Assembly (NCBI RefSeq): GCF_022818495.1
Contig: NZ_CP089291.1
Location: 558,001-622,000 of the forward strand
Length of the DNA stretch: 64,000 bases
Source of the DNA: Fodinisporobacter ferrooxydans
GTDB lineage: Bacteria; Bacillota; Bacilli; Tumebacillales; MYW30-H2
Reading direction: 5' to 3'
Every line of letters starts with the position of its first letter. Position 1 is the first letter of the stretch. Below are positions 7,715 to 47,690 of the stretch, piece by piece. The notes beneath the pieces are model-generated. The model was not told the origin of the DNA. It saw only the letters and a list, made by a program, of their open reading frames with translations, and did not search any database. Position numbers and translations under genes: made by a program.

Positions 7715-8679
7715 GGCTGTCTTCCTTCCCTTTGCGGATGCAGCAACCAGCAAGACGTTTCTTGGCGATCTGTTTTAAACACGGGTGGATTGTGCTCAGC
7801 GCAAATACGCATCGCATAGGGACAACGCGATGCAAACGAACAACCCACGGGCGGATGCAATAAATCCGGGGGATTTCCAGGAATCGGGACAAGCGCTGAC
7901 CGGTCACCCGGTTTTGGTTTTGAGTTTAAGAGACCGCGTGTATACGGGTGAGCCGGGTACTGAAGGACATCTTTCACGTTTCCAAATTCAATCACGCGAC
8001 CCGCGTACATCACCGCCACTTTATCGGCCGCTTCATGTACAACCGCCAAATCGTGTGTGATTAAAAGGACGCCCATGCCCATCTGCTGTTGTAATTCCTT
8101 TATCAGTTCAAGGATTTGTGCCTGAATGGTAACGTCGAGGGCAGTGGTAGGCTCGTCAGCAATCAAAAGTCTTGGCGAACAAGCGATCGCGATTGCGATC
8201 ACAGCCCGCTGACGCATCCCGCCACTATATTCATGGGGATAACTATCGGCGCGACGTCTTGGATCGGGTATGCCAACCTTCTCCAATAGTTCAACCGCCA
8301 AACCCTTCGCTTGATTGACCGAAAATTTTTTATGTCGGATCAACGCTTCAGCAATTTGATCCCCTATTTTCATCGTCGGATTCAAAGCAGTCATCGGGTC
8401 TTGAAAAACCATTCCGATTTCTCCGCCACGGATCCCTTGCATCTCTTTTTCCGTAAGCAGCATAAGGTTTTTTCCACGCCACAAAATTTCCCCGGAAACA
8501 CTGGAGTTTTTTGGGAGGAGTCTCATGACGCTTTGCACCGCAACACTTTTCCCGGAACCGGACTCTCCGACAATCGCCAACGTCTCTCCTTCTTCTATTT
8601 GGAGGGAAACGCCGCGTACGGCCTGTACCATTCCGTGCGGGGTCTGAAAATGAACCGTTAACTGCTTTAGTTCCAGCAT
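7687..8679 (-). CDS. oppD: Oligopeptide ABC transporter ATP-binding protein OppD
   Basis: An ABC ATPase of 330 residues, partner of OppF. Walker A is GESGSGKSV, the signature is YSGGMRQRAVIAIA, and Walker B LLIADEPTTALDVTIQAQ is followed by LLITHDLAVV. The C-terminal oligopeptide domain includes GCSFASRCPYAMRIC. The ATG at 8679 is preceded by GGGAGGAATAAGG, better than the longer reading from 8748. It lies 13 bases after oppC and overlaps oppF. Confidence 0.93.
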   Translation of the reverse strand: MLELKQLTVHFQTPHGMVQAVRGVSLQIEEGETLAIVGESGSGKSVAVQSVMRLLPKNSSVSGEILWRGKNLMLLTEKEMQGIRGGEIGMVFQDPMTALNPTMKIGDQIAEALIRHKKFSVNQAKGLAVELLEKVGIPDPRRRADSYPHEYSGGMRQRAVIAIAIACSPRLLIADEPTTALDVTIQAQILELIKELQQQMGMGVLLITHDLAVVHEAADKVAVMYAGRVIEFGNVKDVLQYPAHPYTRGLLNSKPKPGDRSALVPIPGNPPDLLHPPVGCSFASRCPYAMRICAEHNPPVFKTDRQETSCWLLHPQREGRQPWNSYSYGT

Positions 8680-15861: not shown

Positions 15862-16251
15862 CTAGTTTACCGAGTAGATCTTCATATTAACTGTATCAAT
15901 GACAAGCTTTGCTAACCGAATAAAATCGAAACCCAAAATTCCTTGGATGTCGATACCGTAATCCATCGCTCCAATTTCAATTTTACACGGGCTCACAAAA
16001 GAATCTCCTAGAGTCACAGAGTCAAACCATTTCGTGAATACGATTTCAGTTCCGCCAACCCCGTGAATGACTGCTGTCTTATCCGTTTCTTCCGGCTTAA
16101 CACCAATTTCCGATACTATATCAGCATTAAGTATCGTTCCTGCTGAACCGGTATCCAACAATACATTCTTTACACAAAGGCGACGCCCTGAAAAGACGAC
16201 GTCTATATCAATAATTGGAAGACCATGCATCAATCTAATCTCTATAGCCAT
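15862..16251 (-). CDS. Retropepsin-like aspartic protease
   Basis: A 129-residue clan AA aspartic protease, the size of a retroviral protease monomer, so it should act as a homodimer. The catalytic motif is LLDTGSAG (Asp33), followed by the flap region and the C-terminal GILGFDFIRLA hydrophobic-Gly motif. The N-terminal part (IRLMHGLPIIDIDVVFSGRR) is the usual first beta hairpin. There is no signal peptide or membrane segment. The gene overlaps the end of the 85-residue gene upstream by 10 bases, implying coupled translation. A decayed copy of the same pair lies near 47.4 kb. The substrate is unknown; the partner protein is an obvious candidate. Confidence 0.82.
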   Translation of the reverse strand: MAIEIRLMHGLPIIDIDVVFSGRRLCVKNVLLDTGSAGTILNADIVSEIGVKPEETDKTAVIHGVGGTEIVFTKWFDSVTLGDSFVSPCKIEIGAMDYGIDIQGILGFDFIRLAKLVIDTVNMKIYSVN

Positions 16252-16499
16252 CTTTTAAATCCAATCCATTTTTCTTCAATTTTCAAATCAGGACGTGAGG
16301 TGTGAAGAAAGTAAATTTCCCTCTCAGGTTGACTCCGATGAAGTTCCTTATACCGCTTCATTGCTTCCAAAGAATCCTCAAAACGGTCAATAAGCGTAAC
16401 CGAATCAATACACCGAAACCCATTTTTTGAATACGCATCCGCAGCTTCGAATACAACCCACTCATCCGGAAATCTTTCCCTAACTTCTTCCCAGCGCAT
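16242..16499 (-). CDS. Conserved 85-residue partner of the retropepsin-like protease
   Basis: Unrecognised 85-residue protein, mixed charge, no membrane segment. Recognisable stretches are FPDEWVVFEA near the start, LIDRFEDSLEAMKRYKELHRSQP in the middle and YFLHTSRPDLKIEEKWIGF near the end. The same pattern appears in the decayed copy at 47472-47657 (VIDRFGDSKIAMKRYYELHR, FFHTSR, QKWSG), so the protein is a true gene conserved together with the protease. The ATG follows GAGGTGAGAGG. It could be an adaptor, inhibitor or substrate of the protease; nothing in the sequence decides. Confidence 0.75.
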   Translation of the reverse strand: MRWEEVRERFPDEWVVFEAADAYSKNGFRCIDSVTLIDRFEDSLEAMKRYKELHRSQPEREIYFLHTSRPDLKIEEKWIGFKRWL

Positions 16500-16639
16500 A
16501 TCCTCTCACCTCGGCAATCATGATTGCTATAAGTATACCACAAAAACTCGCACGTCCTACCTGACTACGGTGATCAATTCGGGAATTTCCGCTCTTTCTT
16601 CTATATCCATGAATATTTAGATGACAATGATGAATAGAG

Positions 16640-16845
16640 ATCATCTCAATGTTTCCTGATTTCTGCAATACCATCTCAAGTTTTCTGCGGTATGGACAGG
16701 TTGCTGAGGTTATGAGCAGACGATGTCCCCAAATATCATCCGGTACAGCAAATTCCTTTTGAGCGAGCGGATGGTTCTCTGGCATCAATACAGCAAACTC
16801 TTCTTTACTGGACAGTGAAAAGTTTTTGTCGAAAAATTGTTGGAT
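16640..16845 (-). pseudogene. LysR substrate-binding domain fragment
   Basis: In frame the strand reads SKEEFAVLMPENHPLAQKEF and then CPYRRKLEMVLQKSGN, a clear piece of a LysR-family effector domain (VxPxxHPLA and C-YR pattern). The DNA-binding domain and the C-terminal half are absent: the 5' side is replaced by the group II intron and the 3' side stops near EMISI and runs into the retropepsin module promoter region. It is a broken gene. Confidence 0.7.
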
Positions 16846-16955
16846 ATAGGAATAGCTAAGGAGAGTCTTCAACATGACTTGGTCAGTTCTCCTTTTCGCC
16901 CTCCTTCGCACCGTACGTGATTCTTTCGAATCATACGGCGCTCCATCATGACCTT

Positions 16956-18473
16956 CTACATGAGACGATTCAACTTTTCTCTGAAGGATAGAATCTTTTT
17001 CCAGATCTTCTTGCCTAACGAGGCATAATCCTCTTGGCTATGAATCTGTCTGTGGCAATGTTCATGTACCGCGGCTAAATTGTTGACTCGATTGACGGAA
17101 GCCTGCGGGAGGTGAGGGTCAATATGGTGGATGTGTAGATTGAACGGTTGTAGTTCTTCGTCACAGACCCTGCATTTCCCTTTGTCCCGGTTATAAGCAT
17201 AAGCTCGATTCAGGAAGTATTCGAAGTTGTATCTCTTGTCGGTCGCGCCTTTGCTGATGATTTTAGAAAAGTGCAGAGATAACAGCTCATCTGCCCGTGC
17301 CCGCAAGGGTGTCTTTCCTGTTCGTTCCCGATACAGCTTTCGACCTTCTATCGTGAAGGGGGATTCCTCCGGATTCTTGAGTTGCGTTTTCTTCCACTTA
17401 CAAAATGCCAACGAAGTGATGCCGATATTCGCATGCTTGTACGTTACGGCTGGAATGCCCATTGTATAATCTGCGTGGACACTTGCGAGATTGTTCACTT
17501 CGTTGGCGGGAAGCCAAATGCCGCCGTATTTGTCCAATACCCTCTTTGCTTTCCATTTCAGGTTGTATGCATATTTGCTCAAGATGATGTTGACCCACGT
17601 GGTGCATTGATAATATTGGATGATTCCCCTGATCGTTGCGTTGACGACATTGATTTCATGGATGAGAGCTTCTTTGTTCTTGCAGCGTTTCAGGGTATTC
17701 AATTTCTGGTGGAGTTCCCTCGCTTTGCTTTTCAGCCGAGTTCGGTCGGGCATGGTTCGCGTCACATAGCCGGTTCGTGATTTGCCTTTGATCATCTTGC
17801 ATTCACAGCCGAGGAAATGGATCGGCTTCTCTCGGACGTTGGTGATGACTGTCTTCTCTACCGATAATGCCAGTTTGAGATTCGATCGTAAGTAATTGCT
17901 GATTCGTTGTTTCCATTTCTCCGCATTCCGTTTGGTGTCGGTCGCGAGTATCCAGTCATCGGCGTAGCGAACGAGATAAGCAGGCTTGAGGCGGCTCCTT
18001 TTCTTGAGGGCTTCCTGCTGAGTGCTTGGCGTTGCATACGTCTGTTTGGTTTTCTTGTTTTCCCATTCCCGGGTCACCCACTGATCGAACGAGTGGAGAT
18101 ACACGTTGGCAAGTAGCGGTGAGATGATGCCCCCCTGTACCGTTCCCAGCGGGTTGATCTGAATTTCATCCATGATTCCCGTTTTGAGCATCGCTTTGAT
18201 GATCATAAGCACTCGTTGATCGCGTATTCCCATGCCGTATAATTGTTTACACAGTTTGTTGTGGTTGACGCAATCGAAGAATTTGGAAATATCTCCTTCT
18301 ACGATCCAGGGGTATCCCGTGACATAGAGGATTCGCGTCGTTCTTTCCAGTGCCATATGCGCATCCCGCATCGGGCGGAATCCGTAAGAATGCTTAAAGA
18401 ATTGCGCTTCCATGATCGGTTCCAGAATGATTCTTACACATTCCTGTACGATGCGGTCGATGATGGCGGGCAC
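16956..18473 (-). pseudogene. ltrA: Group II intron reverse transcriptase/maturase, C-terminal part with HNH domain
   Basis: About 505 codons of a group II intron-encoded protein. It starts abruptly at PAIIDRIVQECVRIILEPI (RT block 1-2), continues with GYPWIVEGDISKFFD, LGTVQGGIISPLLANVYL and the active site LVRYADDWIL near residue 169, a thumb and maturase (domain X) region, and ends in an HNH endonuclease (CRVC...HIHHIDP...NLAAVHEHCHRQIH). The first 110 or so residues lie 3.0 kb away at 21425-21847, separated by an inserted element. Without rejoining, the RT lacks its N-terminus, so it is scored as broken. Confidence 0.88.
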
Positions 18474-25171: not shown

Positions 25172-26635
25172 CTAAACCAAAAAGGCTTCTTGCTCCAAAG
25201 TGCCCCCAACTTCGAGCAGCTTCCGGATCAGCCGTTGCCATATTTCATAGTGTGGATTCGCCAATAATCCTTCCAATCGAACTCGGTACTCTTCGTCAAA
25301 AGGTTCGACAAACTCAATCAAGTCATCGACCCACTGCGGTTCCATCCTCCAGGGATGCACATGCGGCCAAACGGAATCTCGGAGTGTCTGAAAAATCAAT
25401 ATGCCTCCATAATCGAGATCACCCCAATGAAGAAACACTGGATTTTGTCTATCATTTTGAATCGAAATTTCCATTTGCACTTGCTTAGATTCTTCCACTT
25501 GCACTTGTGTAAACTCTGCCAATTTACGCAGAAAACGCCGTTTACCGGGACTTGGGAAACCACCGAGATAAATCACGAGCTCGTCCTGCTTTCGTTCATG
25601 TCGGATATAGTGGCGATAATTGGTTCGGTTTTCAATCGTTACAATTCGACTGATCGGCAGGGCAATGATCTGCAAATGATCGATTACCTCCGTATCCAAA
25701 GCCAAGCCAAAAGGAAAATCAGCACAATCCAACTTTAAATTCATGTCAATAGAAAGTTCCAAGCAATCAAACTTCCGGTTGAGACTGGATTCAATCGGAC
25801 TCTTGCCATTTCCCCATTGAAGTGATTCGTTTCGAAGAGATTCGCCCCAAACTCCAAAAACGATCGGTCCGCAAAAAGCGATGTCTTCATGTGAAACTGC
25901 TATGCCAATCTCCGAAAGCAAATACGCGTCCAATTCAACCGTATTTTCAGCAATATGCAGATCTCTTGGAAAAGCCGTATACTCCCAATAATGGCGCAGC
26001 AAACTGACGATTCTGGAACGGACTTGCGTTTCGAACGCTTTACTGGACTTTAAATACCGTTTGGAAAACAGACGCATCGGCAGCACCTCGTCCCCCTTGT
26101 CGACGATTCCGGCGAGTGTTTTCAAGAGCAATGAACGTTTGTCTTGTTGTACAGGGATCAGAGACCCTGGTATCGACTGATTCCGATCCATATAGGACTT
26201 GACGTCGGCTATCCATGCCTGTATCCACGACGGCAGCAAGTTCCCGAATCGATCAATCAACTGTAACAGCTCCTTGCGAACTGTTTCGAGTTCATCCGCT
26301 TTTGGCCTCCGTCCGAGCAGACGATAAGCTGAATCAATCCCTTCCCAACAAAGCAGGACGCGGGCAAGCATATTGCCGACTTCAAAACGGCCCCATTCCA
26401 GTTCTACGATTCCTTCCTTCGCCCACTCTTGCAGCCCCCGATGAAGTTCCCGGCGTTCGTCTGCATCCATGCCTCCTGATTTGTACTTGGGAACGACAGC
26501 GTCTGTCATCGCTAATTGGATCCGTCTTGCTGTCCGTTCCCCGCGTACAAATGCCGTACTCGATTCATATTTATCCAGCAATTTGTGTAATATCGTAAGC
26601 GCATAATCACTTCCAGCTTGCGACATCTTACACAC
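25172..26635 (-). CDS. jetD: Wadjet system nuclease subunit JetD (DUF2220 type)
   Basis: A 487-residue Toprim-type nuclease subunit of the first Wadjet operon. The Toprim Glu lies in RIVTIENRTNY and the metal-binding acidic motif in HWGDLDYGGILIF, both in the C-terminal half, matching DUF2220. The N-terminal half is helical with winged-helix character and is expected to dock on the JetABC complex. In characterised systems JetD cuts circular DNA after JetABC has extruded it into loops. The gene overlaps the jetC stop by 8 bases. A start at MSQAG (26626) is possible. Both catalytic motifs look intact. Confidence 0.88.
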   Translation of the reverse strand: MCKMSQAGSDYALTILHKLLDKYESSTAFVRGERTARRIQLAMTDAVVPKYKSGGMDADERRELHRGLQEWAKEGIVELEWGRFEVGNMLARVLLCWEGIDSAYRLLGRRPKADELETVRKELLQLIDRFGNLLPSWIQAWIADVKSYMDRNQSIPGSLIPVQQDKRSLLLKTLAGIVDKGDEVLPMRLFSKRYLKSSKAFETQVRSRIVSLLRHYWEYTAFPRDLHIAENTVELDAYLLSEIGIAVSHEDIAFCGPIVFGVWGESLRNESLQWGNGKSPIESSLNRKFDCLELSIDMNLKLDCADFPFGLALDTEVIDHLQIIALPISRIVTIENRTNYRHYIRHERKQDELVIYLGGFPSPGKRRFLRKLAEFTQVQVEESKQVQMEISIQNDRQNPVFLHWGDLDYGGILIFQTLRDSVWPHVHPWRMEPQWVDDLIEFVEPFDEEYRVRLEGLLANPHYEIWQRLIRKLLEVGGTLEQEAFLV

Positions 26636-29600
26636 TCACCTTTTCTTTCGCCATATCAAACTCCAATACTTTCGTTTGGCTTTGAATACGTGTTACGATC
26701 AATGTCCGATCGACAAGCGGGGCAATATCTGCCAATTTCTCTGTTGGTGCCGATAATATGACCTGCAGGCCGAGATCATGAATCAATCGAATACTCTCGC
26801 GAATACGCTGGTGGTCCATCTTGCTATATGCTTCATCAAACACGATCAGCCGTAACGTATTGTCTGTTCCTGGCCGTCCCACCCGATATAATTGCATGAA
26901 GGATGCCAGTACCGAGATATAAAACGGGGTTTGCGTCTCACCGCCAGACTTTTTGGCAATGACACGCGACAACCGCGACTCACGCCCTTCTTCGTCTTTC
27001 ACGATTAAATCGAAGTTGAGATATGTCCGATAATCCGTGAACTTCTCCAGATTTTTTTCGAGTTCTGTCATGGCGTATGGATCTGTCTCGTCCACATCGA
27101 TAATATTGCGGAACAATTCTTCTACTACTTCACCATGTTTTTCTTGAAAGCTTTGTGAAAAGAGTCCATACCCTTCCATTAAGAGCTCGTCCATGATCAT
27201 CTGGTAAAACCGGAGATATTGAGCATTCGGTGTGATTTGGAAGCGATATTGATCCCGACCGAACGAGATGCCTTTTAAAGCCGCATTTAATTCACGGATT
27301 TGGCTTTCCACGGTATAGATGTTGCTTTGCAGCTTGCTGACAAAGTCCTCTTGAAACTGAATTTGGGCACGTTCTTTGGCCTGCCTGATCTTCTCTTCAT
27401 ACTCAGTCAGTTGAGAGTCAATAAGGCGCTGCAACTCGGTTTGATATGCTTCATTGTCTGCACGCTGAATATCAAACCCTGCCTGAAAATCTCGATTGAA
27501 ATCCGCGCGCAGCTTTACAAGCTCTGTCCACAAAGTGTCTTTGCGATTGCGATCCACTTGCATTTGCCGTCCGAAATTGAAAAGAATGGTCGTCGGCGAT
27601 CCGAGCCGCTGCATTTCTTGTTGGAATCTCGGTTCACCCTTTTCCATTACGAAAGCTCCAGTAAAGGAGTCTTCAATGTTTTTCGCAGCCTCATTGCGAT
27701 CCATTTCCAATTTCCTTCGCCGCTCGCCTTCCAATTGATCCAACTTGATTTCCAATTTGGTTTTTTCACTTATCGCATGTTCTTTCTGTTGCTCCACTTG
27801 TTTGATCTGTTTTTCACAATCTCGAATTTTATCATCCAAATCCAATAAATATGACAAATCGAGTGAACCTAAATCATGCAATACTTGACGGAGTTCGGTC
27901 TGCAGTACAGGAACCCGAATTAATTCCCTCTGCGCATCTCCAACGTCGCGAAGATCCCCTTCAGACGGTGGTGTCATACTTGCCCACTTTGCGGCAGATT
28001 GCACGCGCGGCGACCACATTTCCACCAATTCCTCAACCACTGCCAGTCGGGCAGATTTCAGCTCCAACTGCTGTGCCAACGCCCGTTTCCCGATAAACAG
28101 ATTCTCCCAACGTTTTGGATCCATTTGGCGCGCGACATAATTTTGATAGAGCATGCCGTCCGCCGTAACAGCTGTCCGATGGTTGCGCAGCTGCTCGATT
28201 TTCTCAACTTTCATTACCCGGCCTAACAAAAAGTCGGCATACACGCGTGCAAAAGCATCTTCTGTTTCAATCTCCTCAGCGAGACTGCCCGATAGACGCT
28301 CCGGTTTCTGTTCAAGGATACGCCCTATATCGACAATGCCGACATCGTAGATGTGCTGCTCGCGTTTAACGGAATCATACACTTCCAATGCCAACTGAAA
28401 ATATTCCGGCGGTACCAAGAGATAAAACCGTTGTGTATGCAAATAGCCTTCAATGGCTCTGTGCCAAGTTGGATCAGGGATCTCCAACGCCTCGGCAAAG
28501 ATTGTGACAGGTATGTCGGCACCCGTTTTCGTGCGTAAGCTTGTCATGATCGCCCGCTGCAGTTCTGTAACTTTTCTATCATACGGTTTGATGCCCTTTT
28601 TTAATTCTGCAATGACAGCCTTTAGTTCTGCCTGCTCCTGATTTAACCGAGCCAGTTCATCTGCAATTTTTCTATGGATTGTCCCGAGCGAATTCGCAGC
28701 ATTTGCAAGCAGGAGTTGTACATCTGCGAACTCATCTACATTTAGTTCACAACTTGTAGGGTCGAAAGTGTTCAGACTTACACCAGAGAGATCGACTGGT
28801 TTACGAAGCATCTGCATCGCTTGGCCGATGCGACTGCTTGCGGCCTGGATGTCAGCAGATAAATCATCCTGGGTATCGCCAGTTATCCATTGCTCCCATG
28901 ATAATGCTTGTTTAACACCCGCTGCCACGGCCGACCAGCGTGCGGAAAGGTCTAGCAACATTCGCTCTTGCCGTTGAATCGATTGAAAAATGGAAACAAA
29001 TTCAGCATGCAACAGTTGTTTTTTATTTTCCAAACTCTGCTGTTTCACAAAAATATCCGATTGCACACGTTCATCTCGCCATGTATCTCGTAGATTTTGA
29101 AGATCTATTTGACGTTCTTCATGGCGCTTGATCTCTTGGTGAAGCTCCGACAGCCTATGTTTGCTTGTCAATACTTCATGCTCCAACTGCTCTAATTGAG
29201 TTTCAATTTCAACGACTTTTGCACGATCGACAAGGTATTGATACACTTGCAGCCTTTCCTCTACGGTTGACAAGGATTCCGCTTGCTGCCCGATCTGTGT
29301 AAGTGCATCGACTTTTTTGCGAACATGGCGCAGTTCGTCTTCCATTCGTCGGTAATGCCGGATATTTTCACGCATATCTTCAATATCCAATCGATGCTCG
29401 ACATCACAAACGAACTCCGATATAAACCCTGCAACATCCATAATCGGCGAAAAGGGTACCGCCTTTCGAAAGAGTCGAAAAAACTTTTCCCCAATGTTGC
29501 CCATGTGGCTGCGGAACATGTCCTGGTATCGTTTATTGGTTTCATAGAGTTCAAATTTGCCCTTGCCTTTTTTACTGCCCCATTGCCGCAGCTCCTGAAT

Positions 29601-30044
29601 ACTGAGCGGTGTTTCCTCACGAATGAAATGAAAAGAAGGCAATTCATCAAGCAGCGAAAAGAACCGATGGTTATAGGTTCCATCAGGATCACAATCAAAT
29701 ATGATCCCCATGCATAAATGTTTCTTTTTTACCGTATCGTAAAATTCCGCCACAACGTAACTGGAAAATGTTTCATCGGCCCGTAAGTACACAATTCCAC
29801 TGTCTTCCGCATCCGCTACTTCCCCGAACAAATATCCCTTTAAACTGCGGCGCGAGTTATCATTTGCCGCTTTATTGAAAAAATGGCCGCTCGTGTCTCC
29901 CAATATGAGCATCTGTAAAGCATCGAGAATCGTTGACTTCCCAGCCCCATTCTTGCCGGTAAGAAACGTAATCTGCTGAAGGTTCAGCACTTCATGTACG
30001 ATGTAGTGCCAATTGATGAGAACAAGCTTTTCCAATCGTTTCAT
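26628..30044 (-). CDS. jetC: Wadjet SMC-like ATPase JetC (type II)
   Basis: A 1138-residue SMC/MukB-like ATPase that should extrude DNA loops as the motor of the complex. Walker A is GKNGAGKSTIL (residues 30-40). Two long coiled-coil regions (about 220-480 and 690-930) flank a hinge-like middle. The C-terminal head has the signature KKSGGETQTPFYISVLASF and Walker B LRLIVFDEAYSKMD. The ATG at 30044 overlaps the jetB stop (ATGA). Length and arrangement fit JetC of the DUF5716/DUF4194 type. No frameshift seen. Confidence 0.9.
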   Translation of the reverse strand: MKRLEKLVLINWHYIVHEVLNLQQITFLTGKNGAGKSTILDALQMLILGDTSGHFFNKAANDNSRRSLKGYLFGEVADAEDSGIVYLRADETFSSYVVAEFYDTVKKKHLCMGIIFDCDPDGTYNHRFFSLLDELPSFHFIREETPLSIQELRQWGSKKGKGKFELYETNKRYQDMFRSHMGNIGEKFFRLFRKAVPFSPIMDVAGFISEFVCDVEHRLDIEDMRENIRHYRRMEDELRHVRKKVDALTQIGQQAESLSTVEERLQVYQYLVDRAKVVEIETQLEQLEHEVLTSKHRLSELHQEIKRHEERQIDLQNLRDTWRDERVQSDIFVKQQSLENKKQLLHAEFVSIFQSIQRQERMLLDLSARWSAVAAGVKQALSWEQWITGDTQDDLSADIQAASSRIGQAMQMLRKPVDLSGVSLNTFDPTSCELNVDEFADVQLLLANAANSLGTIHRKIADELARLNQEQAELKAVIAELKKGIKPYDRKVTELQRAIMTSLRTKTGADIPVTIFAEALEIPDPTWHRAIEGYLHTQRFYLLVPPEYFQLALEVYDSVKREQHIYDVGIVDIGRILEQKPERLSGSLAEEIETEDAFARVYADFLLGRVMKVEKIEQLRNHRTAVTADGMLYQNYVARQMDPKRWENLFIGKRALAQQLELKSARLAVVEELVEMWSPRVQSAAKWASMTPPSEGDLRDVGDAQRELIRVPVLQTELRQVLHDLGSLDLSYLLDLDDKIRDCEKQIKQVEQQKEHAISEKTKLEIKLDQLEGERRRKLEMDRNEAAKNIEDSFTGAFVMEKGEPRFQQEMQRLGSPTTILFNFGRQMQVDRNRKDTLWTELVKLRADFNRDFQAGFDIQRADNEAYQTELQRLIDSQLTEYEEKIRQAKERAQIQFQEDFVSKLQSNIYTVESQIRELNAALKGISFGRDQYRFQITPNAQYLRFYQMIMDELLMEGYGLFSQSFQEKHGEVVEELFRNIIDVDETDPYAMTELEKNLEKFTDYRTYLNFDLIVKDEEGRESRLSRVIAKKSGGETQTPFYISVLASFMQLYRVGRPGTDNTLRLIVFDEAYSKMDHQRIRESIRLIHDLGLQVILSAPTEKLADIAPLVDRTLIVTRIQSQTKVLEFDMAKEKVSV

Positions 30045-30742
30045 TCCATCTCACCTTCCTTCTCATCGATCGATGCGATCCGATCTTGCACTTCGACGTC
30101 CAAATCTTCTTCAAGATCCATTAACTCTTCTTCTGGATCGTCAAATTTCCCTTGATCCAGCATTTCATACAGTTGACTGATTCGCTCATCAGACACCAAC
30201 ATGCGAATCGTCGGATAGACAATCCAGCGACTATCCGGCTGAAATCCTTCACCGTCAATTCTTTCCATGATCGATAATTTTCGCAGCTTCATGAAAGCAG
30301 CTTGCAACCGTGTCACCGCCAATTTCTTCTCGATAAACCCGAATGCCCGCAGTTTTTCGTATACATCACGCAGCCAGATGACAATTTCTCTGCGGCCTGA
30401 TACTTGCTCCAGTTGTTCATCGTAAATAAGCCGCAAAACATATAGAATATATGTTGTGAGTTTGTCCGCATTTTTCCTGTTTCGTCCAAATCTGTTGTAC
30501 AATGCCATCACGCCCCGCAGGCTATCTACCTGCAGTGCCCATCCGCTGACACTGAGATACGCATCAAGCATCGGCTTGACCCTCTCAGCAAACCTATACT
30601 CGCGACTGCCTGTCAACCGTCCCTCTTTTGCATCCCATACGTCTCGCACCAAGAATGTTTGATCAAACAATATGCTTAGGAGTCGCGAAAATTGTTCTCT
30701 ATCCCGATCTGACAATGCTTCATATTCTCTTTGCCAATCCAC
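30041..30742 (-). CDS. jetB: Wadjet subunit JetB (DUF4194, MukE-like)
   Basis: A 233-residue protein of the DUF4194 family, the MukE/kite-like subunit that binds the kleisin and the SMC heads. It is mostly helical with a winged-helix region (IEKKLAVTRLQAAFMKLRKLSIMERI) and a strongly acidic C-terminus (FDDPEEELMDLEEDLDVEV). It starts 83 bases after jetA and overlaps jetC by 4 bases, so translation is coupled. Confidence 0.87.
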   Translation of the reverse strand: MDWQREYEALSDRDREQFSRLLSILFDQTFLVRDVWDAKEGRLTGSREYRFAERVKPMLDAYLSVSGWALQVDSLRGVMALYNRFGRNRKNADKLTTYILYVLRLIYDEQLEQVSGRREIVIWLRDVYEKLRAFGFIEKKLAVTRLQAAFMKLRKLSIMERIDGEGFQPDSRWIVYPTIRMLVSDERISQLYEMLDQGKFDDPEEELMDLEEDLDVEVQDRIASIDEKEGEME

Positions 30743-30825
30743 TGATGTGCCCCCATTCCAGCAGGTTGCTCATAAAATTGTTGCAAAAGGCAATAAAATT
30801 ACTAGTAAGACTCATTAAAACTCTT

Positions 30826-32325
30826 TCACAACGAATGATGTGATTTTTCCCCAATTAATCGCTTGAATGTCAATGCCGGGATTCTATAACCATTTACGAT
30901 CACCGCATCCGCTTCATCGTCCCATGCAAGGCTATACGGGATATCCGATTCATCTGCCTTGATGACCGCAACCATCGTCCGCAAAAAATCTTCCACTTCA
31001 TCGATTGTTAATGCGTGAGCCTCCAAGATGCCTTCTGCTGGCATTTGCGAAAGGATAAACTCGATAATATGTTCATTGGAGAACAGTGATTTAGCCCGTT
31101 CGATCAATTCGTCCGCTTCAGCAGCAAAAAGCACGTCCGGTACTTTGTCCTTCGTTTTCAGCGGTTGCGTTTTTCCACGTTGCCGACGTGTCGGCTCTGT
31201 GAATAGTCCATAAGAATCCGTATATTCTACCCGGAAAATAGGCAGTTTCTCCATCTCGGGCAAGATGCTTGATGTGGACATCTGCTCAGTATCTTGCAAC
31301 TTGGGCAAATGTTTTAAAAGCTCCACAAGCTTACCTTTCGTATTTCGATCCGAATTGAGCAAATATTGAATGCGTTCAACCGAAGCTCGACTGTATGCGC
31401 TATTTCGGCGATCGATTTCATGCAGAAAAGAATCCATCGTTTCAAAACTGTCTAGAATGAACTGGATCATCCGGATGATCTCATAACGGGCCGTATCATC
31501 TTGTATTCCGCTGCGATGTGTCCGCATGGATTGTACAAGCAAATCAAGCACTTCACTATCCTGCAGCCATTCGCGCAATAGAGAAAGAATCCGGGGCCGG
31601 AACCGGTGCACGCTATCGACTGTTTTCAATGGATGATACGTTTTTGCCGCCACAAGCACTTGGTATTCATCGAAATGCTCCTCCAATAATCCACGTATGT
31701 CCTGTCGTTCCTGTAAACTTTGATAGAATTTGTGGATGTTATGCAGCAAAGCCCGCAAGCTAGCCAGCAAATCCTGCGTATGATCATATGCACTTTGCAG
31801 CGCCGGAAACATATAATCTCGTTCTTCATTCGCCGTCCGCAAAACCGAATATGTGCTATATACAAACGAGTTGTATGGCTTGTCGATCGGGTGGACAATA
31901 CTATGAAGCACATCCAGCACCAAAATCGCATAATCAGGTACAATCAAGAGCTCGTCAAGAGAATTTTCGTCAGGAACGGATGTCAACCACTTGCACTCTA
32001 GTAATCTTCGAATTAATGCGTGTGCTTGACCAGATAACGTTTGTTCCCCTTCCATTCCCGTCAATTCGTTATTCCCATACAAATTGTCCGGTTGCTGACG
32101 AATGAAAGAATTATCTATCGAAACCTCAACCTGCTCATCTTGTAATTCCATTAAATCTGCAACCATATGATCGACCAGATACGCTGCCAAGTCTCCTCTT
32201 TTGAAACGCAAATTACCCTGATAGCATTCCCGCAGAACCATCAAGGCACGAAAATATATATGTTTATTTTTGGAGGACAAAATCGAAAAAAACGAATCTC
32301 CTACTATTTCGAATAAGCCTTGCAC
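30826..32325 (-). CDS. jetA: Wadjet subunit JetA (DUF5716, MukF/kleisin-like)
   Basis: The kleisin-like subunit of the first Wadjet system, about 499 residues. The family N-terminus is plain: GLFEIVGDSFFSILSSKNKHIYFRALMVL, a winged helix, followed by a long helical middle and a C-terminal winged helix (SLAWDDEADAVIVNGYRIPALTFKRLIG). The start chosen is GTG at 32325, preceded at eight bases by AGGG and lying about 20 bases after a sigma-A promoter. A longer open frame to 32547 adds 74 residues that do not belong to the family and would begin upstream of the promoter. First gene of the operon jetA-jetB-jetC-jetD. Confidence 0.87.
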   Translation of the reverse strand: MQGLFEIVGDSFFSILSSKNKHIYFRALMVLRECYQGNLRFKRGDLAAYLVDHMVADLMELQDEQVEVSIDNSFIRQQPDNLYGNNELTGMEGEQTLSGQAHALIRRLLECKWLTSVPDENSLDELLIVPDYAILVLDVLHSIVHPIDKPYNSFVYSTYSVLRTANEERDYMFPALQSAYDHTQDLLASLRALLHNIHKFYQSLQERQDIRGLLEEHFDEYQVLVAAKTYHPLKTVDSVHRFRPRILSLLREWLQDSEVLDLLVQSMRTHRSGIQDDTARYEIIRMIQFILDSFETMDSFLHEIDRRNSAYSRASVERIQYLLNSDRNTKGKLVELLKHLPKLQDTEQMSTSSILPEMEKLPIFRVEYTDSYGLFTEPTRRQRGKTQPLKTKDKVPDVLFAAEADELIERAKSLFSNEHIIEFILSQMPAEGILEAHALTIDEVEDFLRTMVAVIKADESDIPYSLAWDDEADAVIVNGYRIPALTFKRLIGEKSHHSL

Positions 32326-32347
32326 TCGTTTCACCCTATCAGATAAT

Positions 32348-32375
32348 ATTATATTTATAGTACCTGATTGGGCAA
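32348..32375 (-). promoter_or_regulatory. Sigma-A promoter of the first Wadjet operon
   Basis: On the minus strand TTGCCC (32375-32370), a 16-base spacer and TATAAT (32353-32348). It places transcription start near 32341, just ahead of the JetA ribosome site, and supports the GTG start at 32325. It lies inside a relic sequence that also occurs near 54.3 kb. Confidence 0.65.
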
Positions 32376-32728
32376 TATCTGTACATGAAGTGGATGGAAT
32401 TGGTGACACGGAAGAAATAGAGCCGACTTCCATATCGAACCGCGCATCTGTAAAGCCGGATATGCGACGGATACGCATAGCAGAGCGATGACTTGTGATA
32501 TAGGAGACGTATCGCATTTGTTGTTTGCCTCTCTCAACTTCCAGCAACTTTTTTCATGCAATTAGTCTTTCCAAAAACTAGCTTTTTCAAACTCGGGTTT
32601 TTGCTAAATGATAAAACAACTAAAAGCACCAAAGAATCGATCGCATCCTAAGAGAATAATCGGCCGAGTATAGCGATTTATGCTAAACTGGGATAGAACA
32701 TCTTGTAAGCAGTAAGGGGATCGTGTCG

Positions 32729-36484: not shown

Positions 36485-38029
36485 TCATACTAGAAAGTCT
36501 TGCACCAATCGGTCCAAGACCTGTTCCTGAAACACTTTCCTGCCGGTTTCTTTCATCGTTTGCAAAAGCTGTTCATCCCAGGGAATGTCCAACTGATTCA
36601 AAAGTTTATGCTCGTTTTCCGTGAAATTTGGGTTGTCATTTCGAACAGCTGATAGATACGTTTCTGTATCCATACGCCATGGAATCAATTGACTCCCATA
36701 TCTCTTCATCAACCCGACCGCCATGGATAACCCTTTTACATCAAAATCTCCACTATAATAAATTCGGGGCTGATCATTTGCATATGTCATTTTATCCAAT
36801 AACCGTAATGCGGCTAGAGATGGTTGACCGCTTGTGCAGATCAATAGATGTGCCTTTCGATCTGGTCGGCCTGCGATTAAATCAATCATCGTACCAAAAA
36901 TAGATGGATTTTCTACAACCATAATGTTCGGCCTGTCTGAAAGATCTTCTGCTTCCAATCGTTCAACTGCAGCTAATGGCAAAGCAATGGGCATTCCCTC
37001 AAACTTTTTGATTCCTGCAACCCAGACGATCGAACTGATATCATCCAGTATAATTCCGGACAAAGCATACTGTTCCCGGGTCCATTCAGCATGTGACATA
37101 TCTTCCACATTTTCCGAATCGTCAACAGCATCTGTGCCCTTTAAGCTTTCGTCCGGTGCTAATCGTTCAGCGTTATCCATTGTGTCAATATTTATTGCTG
37201 TACTATTTGTACGATCCCATTTCACATTCGACGCATACCGTGTCAATTCCGGATTCGACTGCCACGATTCAAACCACGCAAGCATCCCCCAGTAAAACAA
37301 TCTGCCAGACAATGTATTACGATCCAATCGATGGGGATCACCGGTTGTCCTTGCGGCAAATATCGGCAATCGTTCACCTTTTGCCGGTAATGCCAGCAAT
37401 GCCGAAATCGTCGTTCGCAGATTCGGGCTGTCATTTTTTTCACGATATTCCTGATAAATCTCCAAGAATGTGCGATACCCATAACCAGTCCCGCTCTGTA
37501 ATTGTCTGATCCATTTTTCGATTGCTTCAGGATTCGCTCTTTGGCATACTTCACCATTTGAAGCCTCGAAATGTAAGATTTCGATTGCCCAATTACAGAA
37601 CTGTTCCCAATTTTTCTGTTCTTCGTCCAGTTGTTCCTGTCGAGTCGACCAATTCTCTCCACACAAAAGACGCAAACAATCGACGGTGGAAACTTGAAAG
37701 TGGGTTTGCTGCAGTGCCTGTTCCAAATCCGTCATCCGGAAGCGAAACTCTGATGCACCATACAAATTGACGGCAAACAAACCTTCGAGTGCTTGCCGTT
37801 CCTCCTCGCCAAGCTGGGTCAAACGGATCGAGCCGGCAATCCGCCCATAACTTTCATATTTTTTGCAAACCAGCATCCACATCCGGCGAAATCCAACCTG
37901 CCCAATATATTCTTTACATTCCGTTAACAAATCCGCCTTTGACCACGCCTTTAACGAATCAGGAGAATTTGCGTAACCAGACACATCGCCCCCTCCATTA
38001 CTCATCCTGCCAGATCCCTGCAGCTTCAT
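36485..38029 (-). CDS. jetD: Wadjet type III nuclease subunit JetD (DUF2399)
   Basis: A 514-residue Toprim-type nuclease subunit (TIGR02679-like). The C-terminal Toprim core shows PNIMVVENPSIFGTMIDL (Glu) and IYYSGDFDVKGLSMAVGLM (Asp-x-Asp), both intact. The N-terminal part is a helical winged-helix region (DUF3323-like). The ATG at 38029 overlaps the jetC stop (ATGA) and follows GAGAGGAAG. The last residues (VQDFLV) end four bases from the probable IS110 boundary; a relic copy at 1.4 kb has a slightly longer tail, so insertion may have trimmed the C-terminus by a few residues. It is the last gene of the second Wadjet operon. Confidence 0.87.
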   Translation of the reverse strand: MKLQGSGRMSNGGGDVSGYANSPDSLKAWSKADLLTECKEYIGQVGFRRMWMLVCKKYESYGRIAGSIRLTQLGEEERQALEGLFAVNLYGASEFRFRMTDLEQALQQTHFQVSTVDCLRLLCGENWSTRQEQLDEEQKNWEQFCNWAIEILHFEASNGEVCQRANPEAIEKWIRQLQSGTGYGYRTFLEIYQEYREKNDSPNLRTTISALLALPAKGERLPIFAARTTGDPHRLDRNTLSGRLFYWGMLAWFESWQSNPELTRYASNVKWDRTNSTAINIDTMDNAERLAPDESLKGTDAVDDSENVEDMSHAEWTREQYALSGIILDDISSIVWVAGIKKFEGMPIALPLAAVERLEAEDLSDRPNIMVVENPSIFGTMIDLIAGRPDRKAHLLICTSGQPSLAALRLLDKMTYANDQPRIYYSGDFDVKGLSMAVGLMKRYGSQLIPWRMDTETYLSAVRNDNPNFTENEHKLLNQLDIPWDEQLLQTMKETGRKVFQEQVLDRLVQDFLV

Positions 38030-41000
38030 TCTTCCTCTCGAGCTGCAGCAACTTCGTTCAGCGCTTCCCAATCTTGATCGCCCATCAATCGTCTCTGAAC
38101 ACCATTCCAGTAGTAAGGAATCAACGTGACAAAATCTACATCCTGTGGACGGTAAATTTCATAAATGGACAATGACGGCACCGTATCATAACATCCCCAT
38201 AAGACCTGGCTCGTCATCATATAATCGAATTGCATCTCGGTCAGCAATTGGAACATATCGCGCATATTTTCATCGTCGACACCGGCAAACGCTTCATCCA
38301 ATGTAATGATACGGGGAGCATCAGGGCTCGAATCTTTATAACGTGAATCCGTCGCTGCGAACAATGGAATATACATTGCCATCGCCCGTTCCCCACCACT
38401 CATGGTATTAAAGCGGGAGTCGGTCAACTCGCGCCAAGATTGGCTGCCTTTGCGAACATACAGGGTAAAGGCAAACCAGTTGCGATAATCGAGCAGTTCC
38501 TGGATCCACCTGCGGAGTCCTTCACCTTCCGCCGCATCTTCCTTCGCCCATTGAATACGGGAACGAAAATGTTCCACCATTTGCTCAATCTCTTCGTCCA
38601 ATAATGTACTCGGATGTTTGCGCAACAGCCTGACCAGTTGTTCCGTATCCAGTTCCCGTTCGTTGTGTGCCGCTTTCGGCTTCCAATCCAATGATAGGAC
38701 AAGTCCGCTGGACGTTTTTCTGCTTTCCATGAATTGATTCATTACCCGCACCCATTGTTCCGCACGATTGATTTTATCCTTGATCGCACGGCCCACACTA
38801 TGAATCAGGATCTGTTCATACAGTTCCCGGTCCTTTTCATCGATCAGCAACTTCTGCTGTTCTTCCAGCCGTACCAGCTCACGCAAAAGCATCCGCGGTG
38901 TCCATGGCTGATTGCGATCCCGCAGCGATTCGATTAGGATCCGGTTGTATATGGAATCATACCGTTGTTCCAGCGAATAATCGAGCAACGCATTTTTTGC
39001 CAATGTGAATGCATCTTGCAAATGGTACTCCAACTGTTGGATCTTGCGGGATTCATAACGGGAACGGAAAAGGACACGGATCGCTTGGGCTGTTTTCAAA
39101 CATGCTTGCATAGATTCCATATCATCTGCCGTTTTCTTGATCGGATGATCCAGTTCAAATCCGACAAGCTGCAGGTTCCATTCGGTACGCCATATTTGCA
39201 AACCGTCCTGCAAATCCTGCTCCTTCTGTTCCAGTTCACTGCGTTTTTGTTGCAATTTTTCCCCTGTGGCTCCACGCTCGCTTTCCAAAGTACGGAGCTT
39301 TGCATTGCAATCATCAATCGTCTGCTTCCATTCTGCCTTCCTGCTTTGCAATGCCTGCAAACGTTCATACACATCATAGAGCCCCAACTCTTGCACCAAT
39401 TTTGTCAATGCATGAGCGGAAGCTTGTTGCTGTTTTTCGCGTTCCTGCAAGTGTTCCAACTGTTCCTGTTCCATCCGGATACGTTCCGATACTTCTTCCA
39501 ATTCTTCTTGGAGTTGTTCCGCTTCCACACGCATTCTTCCAAGAATCACAAGTGTAGATTTCAAACTGTTGCCCAAACGTTCATAGTCTTGCAGGATTTC
39601 GAGGGCATCCTGAAAGTCTTTTTCTCTCTTTAATCGCGACCATTTGGCTGTTTTTTCAAGTACCACCCGTTGCTGTTCACGCCAATTGTGCGTGGCTTCC
39701 TTATATGCCACACTGCAATCCGCTTCAATTTTTTGTGCATGCTCATAAAAAGCTTTTGCTTCCTGCAGCATCTTGTATACAGATCGCAACTCATCTTCAG
39801 GCGGTAAAGCGAGCAGTTCTGCACGGATTTGCTCCGATTGTACCTGCAGGTCCTGAATATGCAAAAGAAGGGAATCCATCTCGTCTGACAGGATTTTTAT
39901 ATTCTCTTCCAGTTTCTGAATCGCAGCCAACCTCGTCTGTCTGCGCGCTTCGGCACCGATCCATTCAGCCCGCTCCTTGCCAGCGACTTGTCCGGACAGA
40001 GGTCCTAAATGAAATGAGCCTGATTCAGTAATCGAAGCTCCCGTGGTCATTTCTTCACCTACTTGAATCGTTCGCAGCACGTCATCGATGTGACACTTTG
40101 TCAGACCACATTCCGCGCTTGGGGTAGGTTCCAGATAGTCGGCCAATGTATGTCCATACAGTACTGGCGATGGCCGAAGCCAGGATTCCTCTTCCTGATC
40201 CAATATCTCAATCGCGTCAGGGGATATCCAGGCATCCAATAGTCCAGCATGGTGTAAGGCAGTTTCCAATACAGCCTTTGTCCGCTCACCGACATGGGGC
40301 TTGAATTCACACAATGCATACAGCGGTCCTCCAACATTGTTACTCGATTCCATGCGACGCTTGCGGGCGTTTTTTCTTGCCTCACTGCGCTCCGGTTCCG
40401 GTTCCCTTTGCTCTTTCCAAGCTTGCAACTCCACTTGCAGTTGATTCAAGTTTTCTCGTTTCAGTTTACATTCATGCTCTGCCTGCAATCGTTGCGCGGT
40501 GAGTTCGGCTTGGGCCCATTGTTCCGATTTTTTGCAAGGTTCTACAATTTCTTCGTAAGCCAACTCCGGATATCTTTGCAAGCGCTGCAGCATGGTGTGA
40601 AACGCTTCTTCCGCTACCGGCAAACGTTGCAGGCTCTTGAACCAGGCAAGCAACCGATCTTCGTGGGCGATGATCGCTGTCTGCAGTGCCTCTTCTTTTG
40701 CACGGACTGTCCGTTCCGCCGCATCCCGTTTTTCCCGCGCAACGCTCATGCTGGTTTCTGCGTCTTTCATCTTCGCAGCAAGATCACGTTCCTTCACACA
40801 TTCCTGCAATACATGTTTCAATTGTTCGCGATACACCGCCAGATCCCGCCGCCAACTCGCCCACACCTGCTCGGGCACGGCCTCATCCAACCGCTTCCAC
40901 TGACGTTCGTATAGATCATGATCGTAAAATTCCACATCTTTCGCGAGATCGTCCAACTCTCGTTGCAGTGTTTGCTGCTCCGGCAATTGCTGTTCCAACT

Positions 41001-42168
41001 GCTGGGTGACGTCCAGCAAACGATTTTCTTTTTTGTCTTTCTCCTGTTGCCCGGCCCGTAATCTTGCGTTTGTTTGATTCAGTCCCTGTTGTGTTTCTTG
41101 CAGTCGTTCTTGCATCGCCTTAAGCTCATGTTGCTTTTCCATTGCCTCCGAACGATTCAGCAGCTCGATTTCTGTCTCGGTCGCCATGAGTTGCTCATTG
41201 GCTTCATTCAGCGCATTGCTGTTTTGTTCGTATTGCTCCATCAGGCGGTTCCACGCCTGTTCTTGCTCCGATACCTCTACAGCTTTCTGTTTGCGCAATT
41301 CTTCTTCCTGCAGCAGCAGCACAGACTGATTGAATAAGCGATATTCATTATACTGATCATAGCTGTCTGCCAACTTTTGCGCTTCTGAGCGGTGCAGGCT
41401 CAATTCATCCAAGCGGTCACTGATCTCATCCATATCTTCGAGCACTTCCGAAAGCGGACGCAGCTCTTCTTCGCTCAACGGCGGCAATGCATCATTAAGG
41501 ATCCCGTAAATGGTTGACGGTTTGAAATCTTTGGACAGCTTGGGGGAACGCAACTGGATCATCAAATCCAAAAGTTCTTTGTATGCTTCCGGATCGGAAA
41601 ATCCGAATAACAATTTATTTATGAGCTGACGGTATTCTCCCTGTTCGCGGACGACTTTTCCTCCGTCTCCGATCACAACTTCCAATCCGGTCCGGTCTAA
41701 AGGCACTTTTTGCCCATGTTTCTCAAACAGATCCACATCATATAGGAAGATATCCTTGCCGATCCGGCGTTGGTCTGTAACCGCAAATCCCCAGAAGCCG
41801 ACTTGTGCCGCTCCACGTCTGGCACGCAAGCCAATCCCGACTGTCAGGTATTTATCGGTCACAGGCTGATGAAACTCCAGATACAAATATCCAGTCCGAT
41901 CCTGGATTCCGCTTTCCGATTCACCGAGTAAATAAAATTCGATTTTTCGATCCTTGGAACCAAACGGGTCCAGTCGTGACGGACGTTTGTCGCCATCAAG
42001 CACCAACGGCAAAAAACTCTGCATCGTAACCGATTTTCCAGATCCGTTAGTACCGCGGAAAATCAACCGGCCATCTGACAAATGGAAGACTTCATCCGCA
42101 TGGTAATACCAAAAATTAAAAATACCCGCACGATTCATGCACCATCTATTGAATTGCATTTTACTCAT
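38026..42168 (-). CDS. jetC: Wadjet type III SMC-like ATPase JetC (TIGR02680-like)
   Basis: A 1380-residue MukB-like ATPase. The head opens RAGIFNFWYYHADEVFHL with Walker A FRGTNGSGKSVTMQSF (near residue 40) and RLDPFGSKDRKIEFYLLGE, all typical of TIGR02680. Very long coiled coils follow (roughly 290-480 and 750-1010). The C-terminal head has TMSGGERAMAMYIPLFAA and Walker B PRIITLDEAFAGVD. The ATG at 42168 is three bases after AAGGAGCGA and overlaps jetB by 8 bases; a longer frame to 42339 lies inside jetB. It is the DNA-loop-extruding motor. Confidence 0.9.
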   Translation of the reverse strand: MSKMQFNRWCMNRAGIFNFWYYHADEVFHLSDGRLIFRGTNGSGKSVTMQSFLPLVLDGDKRPSRLDPFGSKDRKIEFYLLGESESGIQDRTGYLYLEFHQPVTDKYLTVGIGLRARRGAAQVGFWGFAVTDQRRIGKDIFLYDVDLFEKHGQKVPLDRTGLEVVIGDGGKVVREQGEYRQLINKLLFGFSDPEAYKELLDLMIQLRSPKLSKDFKPSTIYGILNDALPPLSEEELRPLSEVLEDMDEISDRLDELSLHRSEAQKLADSYDQYNEYRLFNQSVLLLQEEELRKQKAVEVSEQEQAWNRLMEQYEQNSNALNEANEQLMATETEIELLNRSEAMEKQHELKAMQERLQETQQGLNQTNARLRAGQQEKDKKENRLLDVTQQLEQQLPEQQTLQRELDDLAKDVEFYDHDLYERQWKRLDEAVPEQVWASWRRDLAVYREQLKHVLQECVKERDLAAKMKDAETSMSVAREKRDAAERTVRAKEEALQTAIIAHEDRLLAWFKSLQRLPVAEEAFHTMLQRLQRYPELAYEEIVEPCKKSEQWAQAELTAQRLQAEHECKLKRENLNQLQVELQAWKEQREPEPERSEARKNARKRRMESSNNVGGPLYALCEFKPHVGERTKAVLETALHHAGLLDAWISPDAIEILDQEEESWLRPSPVLYGHTLADYLEPTPSAECGLTKCHIDDVLRTIQVGEEMTTGASITESGSFHLGPLSGQVAGKERAEWIGAEARRQTRLAAIQKLEENIKILSDEMDSLLLHIQDLQVQSEQIRAELLALPPEDELRSVYKMLQEAKAFYEHAQKIEADCSVAYKEATHNWREQQRVVLEKTAKWSRLKREKDFQDALEILQDYERLGNSLKSTLVILGRMRVEAEQLQEELEEVSERIRMEQEQLEHLQEREKQQQASAHALTKLVQELGLYDVYERLQALQSRKAEWKQTIDDCNAKLRTLESERGATGEKLQQKRSELEQKEQDLQDGLQIWRTEWNLQLVGFELDHPIKKTADDMESMQACLKTAQAIRVLFRSRYESRKIQQLEYHLQDAFTLAKNALLDYSLEQRYDSIYNRILIESLRDRNQPWTPRMLLRELVRLEEQQKLLIDEKDRELYEQILIHSVGRAIKDKINRAEQWVRVMNQFMESRKTSSGLVLSLDWKPKAAHNERELDTEQLVRLLRKHPSTLLDEEIEQMVEHFRSRIQWAKEDAAEGEGLRRWIQELLDYRNWFAFTLYVRKGSQSWRELTDSRFNTMSGGERAMAMYIPLFAATDSRYKDSSPDAPRIITLDEAFAGVDDENMRDMFQLLTEMQFDYMMTSQVLWGCYDTVPSLSIYEIYRPQDVDFVTLIPYYWNGVQRRLMGDQDWEALNEVAAAREEE

Positions 42169-43387
42169 TCGCTCCTTTCCAATTATAAATACCGTTCCAT
42201 CGCATGAATGCCGGATACAATCGAATCGTATGCGGATCATCGACGTTTCCGAAATTCCATTCTGCCAGGTGTTGCAACAGCTCGTCCGCCAAGGAACTTG
42301 TAGTTTTTTCACGATACGCCTTGCTCCAGTATTCACCATGGAATCCCTTCAACCGGCTTAAAACCCCTTCAAAATCTGTACGCGTCAGCAGCAAATTGCC
42401 GCATTCATCTTGTTCAAAGAATCCTGGCGTTTTGAATAACATTCGGCGTATTTCACCAGCGAGCAGCATCATCAGATCCGACTCACTGCCAAGCGTCGGG
42501 AACAAATCCATCTCCCCAGTAAGTTCTGTCCACGTAAATACCAACCCTTCGCGAAAGCGCCGGCCTTCCAAGCCAAACATGGTTCGCATCTGATCAATCA
42601 ACCACGAACGTTGGATCTGTACGTAACGTTTTTCTTCATCCGTCCACTGCCAGTCATAAACGACCGGCTCTTGCATCAGTCTGCGGAAAATCGTTTGCCG
42701 CCGTGCTTGGACATCCGAATTTCCCGCTGATAAAGTTGCATATTCCGCTTCAGGCAGCGCAACCGTTGGCGCAATCAATTCCTCCATCGAATCATAAGCC
42801 ATCAATTCTTTTGGAAAACGTCGCAATACGTAGCGAGCCAACGGGGATGCTTCATACAATACGTTTTGGTCGCCACCTTCACGCGCCCAATCGGTTTCTT
42901 CACCTTCCACCACGACCAACACATCCAGTTCCCGTAATTTTTTTAACGCCCTTGCCATCGATAGGCGATGCTCATACAAGGTCCAATCCAAATATACTTC
43001 TGACGATAGAAGGTGATCACGAATGGCATCCACCATTTCGGATAACAAAAATTGTTCCGACTCGTTCCGTCCCTCCATGTACCAAAGACCGTATGTGAAC
43101 AATGCGTAATCACGAGGACTGTGGAATGAGTCAATTCGCATCCACGGCTGAAACGACCCTGGGATTTTTTCCAATTTAACAAATGTCCGTGTCACAATCA
43201 GGCTAAAACCCGCGTGTTCATGAAACCAATCTCGCAACCGTTCATACTGATGTTTGACTGCCAAATACAACTCCGGATCCTTTTCTTTCCTGATCCAATG
43301 TCTATTCAGGAGTGCCTGGGCCGCCTGTCGAAATTCCGCTTGCAGTTGTTCCTGTTGACGAACCCTGCCCCTTCTACGCATTCTCAC
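42161..43387 (-). CDS. jetB: Wadjet type III subunit JetB (DUF2398)
   Basis: A 408-residue protein of the DUF2398/TIGR02678 family, the MukE-like subunit. Features seen are an arginine-rich start, FSLIVTRTFVKLEKIPGSFQPWM, DYALFTYGLWYMEGRNESEQFLLSEM and a helical C-terminal half. The start is GTG at 43387, overlapping the jetA stop (GTGA) and eight bases after GAGGTG; an ATG at 43381 is the alternative. Confidence 0.87.
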   Translation of the reverse strand: MRMRRRGRVRQQEQLQAEFRQAAQALLNRHWIRKEKDPELYLAVKHQYERLRDWFHEHAGFSLIVTRTFVKLEKIPGSFQPWMRIDSFHSPRDYALFTYGLWYMEGRNESEQFLLSEMVDAIRDHLLSSEVYLDWTLYEHRLSMARALKKLRELDVLVVVEGEETDWAREGGDQNVLYEASPLARYVLRRFPKELMAYDSMEELIAPTVALPEAEYATLSAGNSDVQARRQTIFRRLMQEPVVYDWQWTDEEKRYVQIQRSWLIDQMRTMFGLEGRRFREGLVFTWTELTGEMDLFPTLGSESDLMMLLAGEIRRMLFKTPGFFEQDECGNLLLTRTDFEGVLSRLKGFHGEYWSKAYREKTTSSLADELLQHLAEWNFGNVDDPHTIRLYPAFMRWNGIYNWKGANE

Positions 43388-47323: not shown

Positions 47324-47344
47324 CGTTCATAACCTCCTATTACC

Positions 47345-47475
47345 ACTGCATCTGAGTTAAAAACAGTTCCCGCCGAACCAGTATCGATTCATACATTTTT
47401 CAATTGAAGTTCCTTATTTCGAAAGCAAATCGCTACTTCAACAAAGGGCAAACCATACGTTACATCCATATTCAT
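47345..47475 (-). pseudogene. Decayed retropepsin-like protease
   Basis: From ATG 47475 the frame reads MNMDVTYGLPFVEVAICFR and KNV, then a TGA, then IDTGSAGTVFNSDAV. It corresponds to the first 45 residues of the intact protease at 15862-16251. The Leu before the catalytic Asp has become a stop codon and the rest is missing. Confidence 0.8.
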
Positions 47476-47690
47476 CTTGGCCCCTGTACGCCCGACCATT
47501 TCTGACGAAGCTGCAATTTTGTGCGGGATGTATGAAAAAATCCATACTCTTTGTACGGTTCCACTCGATGCAATTCATAATAACGCTTCATAGCGATTTT
47601 GGAATCGCCAAAACGATCAATGACTGCTACTTCATCAATAAAATAATCATCATTCAAAATTTATATAGAGCCTTTTCAAAAAGCTCCGAG
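47472..47690 (-). pseudogene. Decayed copy of the 85-residue protease partner
   Basis: The frame VAVIDRFGDSKIAMKRYYEL followed by FFHTSRTKLQLRQKWSG matches the intact 85-residue protein at 16242-16499. The N-terminal part upstream of 47657 (ELFEKALYKF) is still visible but a TGA interrupts it. It overlaps the decayed protease start just as in the intact pair, so the two-gene module was inherited as a unit. Confidence 0.75.

Follow-up and report, generated by a model that had tools for sequence, protein, structure and literature searches.

The analysis of a 64,000-nucleotide stretch of the Fodinisporobacter ferrooxydans genome (hereafter the window) identified two small overlapping genes, A and P, which are best explained as forming one translationally coupled and separately transcribed two-gene module and, judged from their profile matches, represent a further member of the named anti-phage candidate PDC-M08. 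Gene A (16242..16499, minus strand) encodes 85 amino acids and gene P (15862..16251, minus strand) a retropepsin-like aspartic protease of 129 amino acids with the catalytic residues D33-T34-G35. The 3' end of A lies on the 5' end of P over 10 bp (16242..16251, minus strand), hence the two reading frames and their 10-base overlap reported in an earlier note on this DNA are present. The product of A matches the PADLOC-DB 2.0.0 profile PDLC04400 of the PDC-M08A family (E 6.5e-35, profile positions 1-84 of 86), P matches the profile PDLC04405 of the PDC-M08B family in the same database version (E 6.3e-45, profile positions 2-125 of 127), and the second intact copy in this genome (L003) gave the same two matches. 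The earlier suggestion of a possibly undescribed system does not hold with regard to discovery, because both genes are already named in PADLOC-DB 2.0.0 as PDC-M08A and PDC-M08B. The PDC candidates were reportedly found as genes embedded within known defence systems and published on bioRxiv. A search of the open full-text literature (5.39 million papers), a scope to which the preprint behind the PDC names does not belong, returned nothing on the name and function of PDC-M08; the same literature gave only a fungal paper (by title) for retropepsins in phage defence, no paper on an aspartic protease with antiphage abortive infection, and a single review on cell death for aspartyl proteases in phage-related defence islands. 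In PMC11811056, the PDC systems are termed unpublished candidate systems.

The linkage of the two genes was analyzed in 76 regions (L123-L198) around matches to A or P in relatives and phylum samples, which were classified with profiles of both genes; a gene was judged by hand to be full when a single frame covered at least 71/78 (A) or 112/123 (P) model positions. The survey yielded 35 near-full-length proteases, from which inspection of the ends removed four damaged copies (frameshifts in L127 and L141, a replaced N-terminus in L145, a changed C-terminus in L195) and one region (L174) in which A is cut by the contig end. Among the 30 intact proteases whose upstream flank could be assessed, 28 directly follow an intact A. 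Homologues of A and P thus do not usually occur apart, and the 85-codon frame is conserved in other genomes, so that the joint inheritance proposed in the earlier note has held up and neither of the objections raised there, genes living mostly apart or a first frame lacking conservation, applies. The remaining two intact proteases (L143 and L154, in which the upstream frames were read) are free of any A, which indicates that A is not strictly needed. The L143 protease carries DSG in place of DTG, and the truncated L145 is likewise a PDC-M08B-type protease without gene A. Seen from gene A, 50 sites clear of contig ends contain a near-full-length copy, at which P is intact in 28, broken in 14 and undetectable in eight, with A itself being doubtful at four of these eight (no standard start codon in L150, location inside a longer ORF in L151, an altered C-terminus in L169 and a missing start in L182). 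The A-like domain of L151 (71/78 model positions) represents the N-terminus of an ORF of 191 amino acids (7979-8551), which has neither a protease beside it nor a Pfam match at 1e-5.

The two genes are not only neighbours, they are also tightly coupled, as had been supposed from the window copy. In 23 of the 28 intact pairs A, the first gene, overlaps P by 1-20 bp, and this gene order is the same in many genomes. With start codons chosen by script, the spacing ranges from -20 to +2, and exactly 4 bp of overlap are shared by 12/28 pairs. The leader of the window gene A (16500..16561, minus strand) combines an extended -10 box (TGGTATACT), a ribosome-binding-like element (GGTGAGAGG) and a perfect 14-bp palindrome (GCAATCATGATTGC). 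In 33 of 61 loci, an extended -10 box of this kind precedes A by 15-62 nt, the other 28 being without the pattern, compared with 2.4 expected from simple shuffles and 2/61 in the stretch 215-262 nt upstream; hence, about half of the loci look like an own transcription unit. A shared operator is not visible among 32 leaders, since palindromes with arms of at least 6 bp occur in seven of them, including the window 14-mer, and are unalike.

Both genes are under purifying selection in relatives. In one close clade of Bacillus-type copies, the dN/dS values for A range from 0.05 to 0.20, with one comparison at 0.35, and those for P from 0.06 to 0.10. Nevertheless, P is damaged or lost more often than A. 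At 20 sites only one of the two genes is clearly intact, and at 18 of them this gene is A (one-sided p 0.0002 with equal odds, p 0.0035 if lesions scale with gene length), a count classed by hand that draws some sites from related genomes, holds the same-genus, non-independent pairs L157/L165, L175/L195 and L188/L198, and leaves out the contig-end sites L173, L174, L176 and L185 as well as sites with both genes broken. The four doubtful A genes were set aside here; adding them would give A at 22 of 24 sites. An earlier, looser count had given A at 20 of 24 sites (p 0.0008 and 0.013). A similar picture emerged from seven close relatives (L074, L075, L076, L078, L080, L082, L083), where A reads through in all seven, though with its last residues changed in L083, and P is intact in four and lost via a nonsense codon in L075, a frameshift in L076 and a deletion in L083. 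Cells evidently tolerate A in the absence of P, so a role of A as a toxin eliminated by P is unlikely. The decay pattern fits P as the costly part of the module, and the two lone proteases speak against a strict antitoxin role of A. Several lesions affect the catalytic DTG codons themselves: single-base indels fall exactly there in L126 (~8203), L134 (~7867) and L177 (~953), an insertion splits P at DTG in L183 (6420/9735), and in the window relic a stop (~47386) precedes the Asp by two codons. These lesions were noticed post hoc and read by eye among the loci listed, and damaged copies bear several lesions; the cluster is unexplained and might reflect a hotspot, selection or chance.

At the protein level, P is well defined. 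It matches Asp_protease_2 (4e-10) and gag-asp_proteas (2.9e-8), each above the Pfam cut-off, and it shows no hydrophobic N-terminus, in agreement with the initial description of a retropepsin-like protease without signal peptide. Its monomer model (pLDDT 91.6) displays a single-domain retropepsin fold, assigned by Foldseek with probability 1.00 to APRc and HIV proteases. In 28 chosen sequences, an alignment that includes the 5'-frameshifted 4,731k copy, the residues D33, T34 and G35, the flap glycines G64, G66 and G67, and a G-x-D motif near the C-terminus are invariant. Gene A, for its part, had zero matches in Pfam or NCBIfam at E values up to 1. Its model (mean pLDDT 89) shows a helix-strand-strand-helix-strand arrangement with a low-confidence tail at residues 80-85, and five residues (M1, W3, P11, A46, T67) do not vary among 28 aligned sequences. 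No credible fold relative was obtained with Foldseek (best E 0.14 in PDB, 0.029 for a DUF2188 protein among viral models), nor a credible relative with the sequence profile against PDB (best E 0.18). Thus, A has a confidently predicted model without clear structural relative, which is no proof of a new fold.

Collectively, these observations lead us to favour, with somewhat less than even confidence, the predicted function that A restrains or directs the cytosolic retropepsin P in a phage-defence module. In such a module P would act in the cytosol as a homodimeric aspartic protease that burdens or endangers the cell, and A, being made first, would bind P and either keep it inactive or tie it to a chosen substrate. 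Phage infection would then lift the control of A over P, and the freed protease might cleave a host or phage protein, by which the infection would be stopped. The more specific version, an immune or addiction module in which a retropepsin effector is checked by a small new-fold A protein until phage infection releases the protease to carry out regulated proteolysis or to kill the cell, is conceivable, yet we consider it doubtful.

Alternatively, A could be a substrate adaptor or specificity factor, which takes hold of a phage or host protein and delivers it to P such that both genes are needed for activity. The tight pairing and coupling of A and P would suit this function, as would alignments of the A model with the protease adaptor ClpS in VIA-align, which reached Z 2.8-3.5 over 47-48 residues. 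However, Z values this low are common among unrelated folds according to the tool, the best row (Z 3.8) is a designed protein, and the 18 sites at which A is clearly intact but has no intact protease beside it are odd for a factor useful only together with P, which makes this explanation rather unlikely. Still less probable, and in our opinion quite improbable, is that A serves as the substrate of P, the cleavage of which would liberate an active fragment and thereby work as a small proteolytic switch. Coupled translation and the low-confidence C-terminal tail would be in line with such a role, but A is modelled as a compact protein and is conserved where P is dead, with a dN/dS of 0.13 for two loci of this kind, part of the branch possibly being older than the loss of P.

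Of the six A-P loci in the F. ferrooxydans genome (4.86 Mb, one contig), four are damaged. The two clearly intact ones are the window locus (574k) and the locus at 994k. At 4,731k A is intact and P is frameshifted near its 5' end, its 122-amino-acid ORF opening with an unrelated start; P is frameshifted at 1,150k and broken at 4,054k, and the locus at 605k corresponds to a relic in the window. An extra A fragment is located at 3,537k. The relic had been placed at 47345-47690 with the same order and overlap as the intact pair; it is real (about 47338-47654) and has the same order, but its overlap comprises 4 bp (ATGA) and not 10. The relic A (47472..47654, minus strand) covers model positions ~26-77 and runs on to its stop, while the relic P (47338..47475, minus strand), overlapping it by these 4 bp, retains the first ~44 model positions with one stop codon, situated two codons ahead of the catalytic Asp. 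An origin of the relic as local duplicate of the intact pair was ruled out, since the A fragment of the relic shares 74-75% identity with the copies of Paenibacillus hemerocallicola and P. ginsengarvi (L067, L068) and only 54% with the intact window A. It follows that the two window copies were acquired separately.

The distribution of the pair is patchy. Among 61 relatives, A is present in 13 and P in 12; among 398 phylum genomes the numbers are 32 for A and 40 for P, the last of these including weak matches that may be other proteases. The figures for A count the F. ferrooxydans genome itself in both sets. The PDC-M08A family is absent from 14 control genomes. A contig scan of 84,980 species found at least 19 loci, all in Bacillota genera by title, which is a lower bound from a single narrow pattern and contains little information on other phyla. 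The pair is rare in mobile-element collections. Of the 72,556 plasmids and 50,697 phage records screened with these queries, two and three, respectively, contain A; P was detected in four plasmids. Among seven loci on viral contigs, six hold both A and P; intact pairs are carried by the C. difficile phage-plasmid phiCDIF1296T (phi141-phi140) and by the Alicyclobacillus plasmid p1, on which P is annotated as retropepsin-like, and a Priestia plasmid match consists of A with no P after it. The A-P pair appears to be a horizontally spreading module.

The window is a defence island in which two sets of Wadjet genes are found. It contains a complete Wadjet type I (JetA-D, JetA1-D1; 25172-32547), a complete Wadjet type II (JetA-D, JetA2-D2; 36485-44967) and a TOTE conflict-system primase-helicase (51806-53851), and furthermore a reverse transcriptase (group II-like by our own label), a serine recombinase and an IS110-family transposase, which agrees with the location among defence and mobile genes described before. 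Just upstream of the pair, an ORF (16480-16911) resembles a LysR substrate-binding fragment by eye and has no Pfam match at 1e-5; a reverse transcriptase (16956-18473) beside it recurs at ~1,155k in the same genome (L126). In the survey the neighbourhoods are mixed and include many ordinary metabolic genes. No third component recurs among the 801 ORFs surrounding 75 of the sites, the two largest clusters being ABC-transporter-ATPase-like and phage-integrase-like proteins (named from sequence) at 10 of 75 sites each. Genes resembling nucleotidyltransferase/HEPN toxin-antitoxin systems, equally named from sequence and with NTP_transf_2 and HEPN in the Pfam tally, are located near the pair in L131, L156 and L165. 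PADLOC models matched by 150 neighbour ORFs (45 sites) amounted to 197, compared with 24 for 138 control ORFs (45 same-genome regions), a comparison of random ORFs out of 180 each that counts models and not proteins among the best 25 families, with many models being redundant (PDC-S05) and the mean lengths differing. It points towards defence; however, we do not rely on it.

The ROK, transporter and metabolic genes found in the mixed neighbourhoods could also indicate that the pair represents ordinary accessory regulator or stress genes with no defence role. Its rarity on plasmids and phages in the collections searched and the two intact proteases that stand alone would support such an assignment. 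On the other hand, the occurrence of A in 32 of 398 phylum genomes, the presence of six copies in a single genome, four of them damaged, the separate acquisition of the two window copies and the defence-island setting argue against it, and we regard it as unlikely. Returning to A as the protein that restrains or directs P in phage defence, the survey provides testable features of PDC-M08, namely the gene order, the promoter-like box, A outlasting P and the key residues. The own extended -10 promoter in many copies, A as the first gene, its persistence beyond P and its confident model are new here. The active-site Asp of P and W3, P11, A46 and T67 of A are the residues to be changed in future work.

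Compared with known systems, the window pair is closest to PDC-M08 itself, because both genes match its two components and adjoin on one strand, and no difference from these components was found. The window pair lies beside and not inside the Wadjet gene sets, with the pair at 15.9 kb, the Wadjet sets at 25.2-32.5 kb and 36.5-45.0 kb, and the relic at 47.4 kb of the window. Two phage protein families are also matched, phrog_21241 (labelled protease) by P with 1.5e-13 and phrog_21859 (labelled unknown function) by A with 1.2e-5. The module resembles type II toxin-antitoxin systems in having two small coupled genes with the putative protector A first, and in that this putative protector is more often intact when the module decays. 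No conserved operator palindrome was seen in its leaders (7/32 with palindromes, unalike). We know of no type II toxin-antitoxin module with a retropepsin, and a search of the open full-text literature found no paper that brings the two together. The closest solved fold to P is APRc of Rickettsia conorii (PDB 5c9f; TM 0.70-0.71, E 8.2e-7), followed by HIV proteases; APRc shares 19% identity with P over 127 alignment columns, and to our knowledge it has no partner gene A. By sequence, the P profile matched best to the retropepsin domain of Ddi1 among solved structures (E 8e-7). Ddi1 is a eukaryotic protein in which the retropepsin domain belongs to a larger protein, whereas P is a free-standing bacterial protein with the partner A. 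If the proposed function is true, a retropepsin-fold effector would tie bacterial immunity to a protease family that is mainly known from retroviruses and Ddi1.
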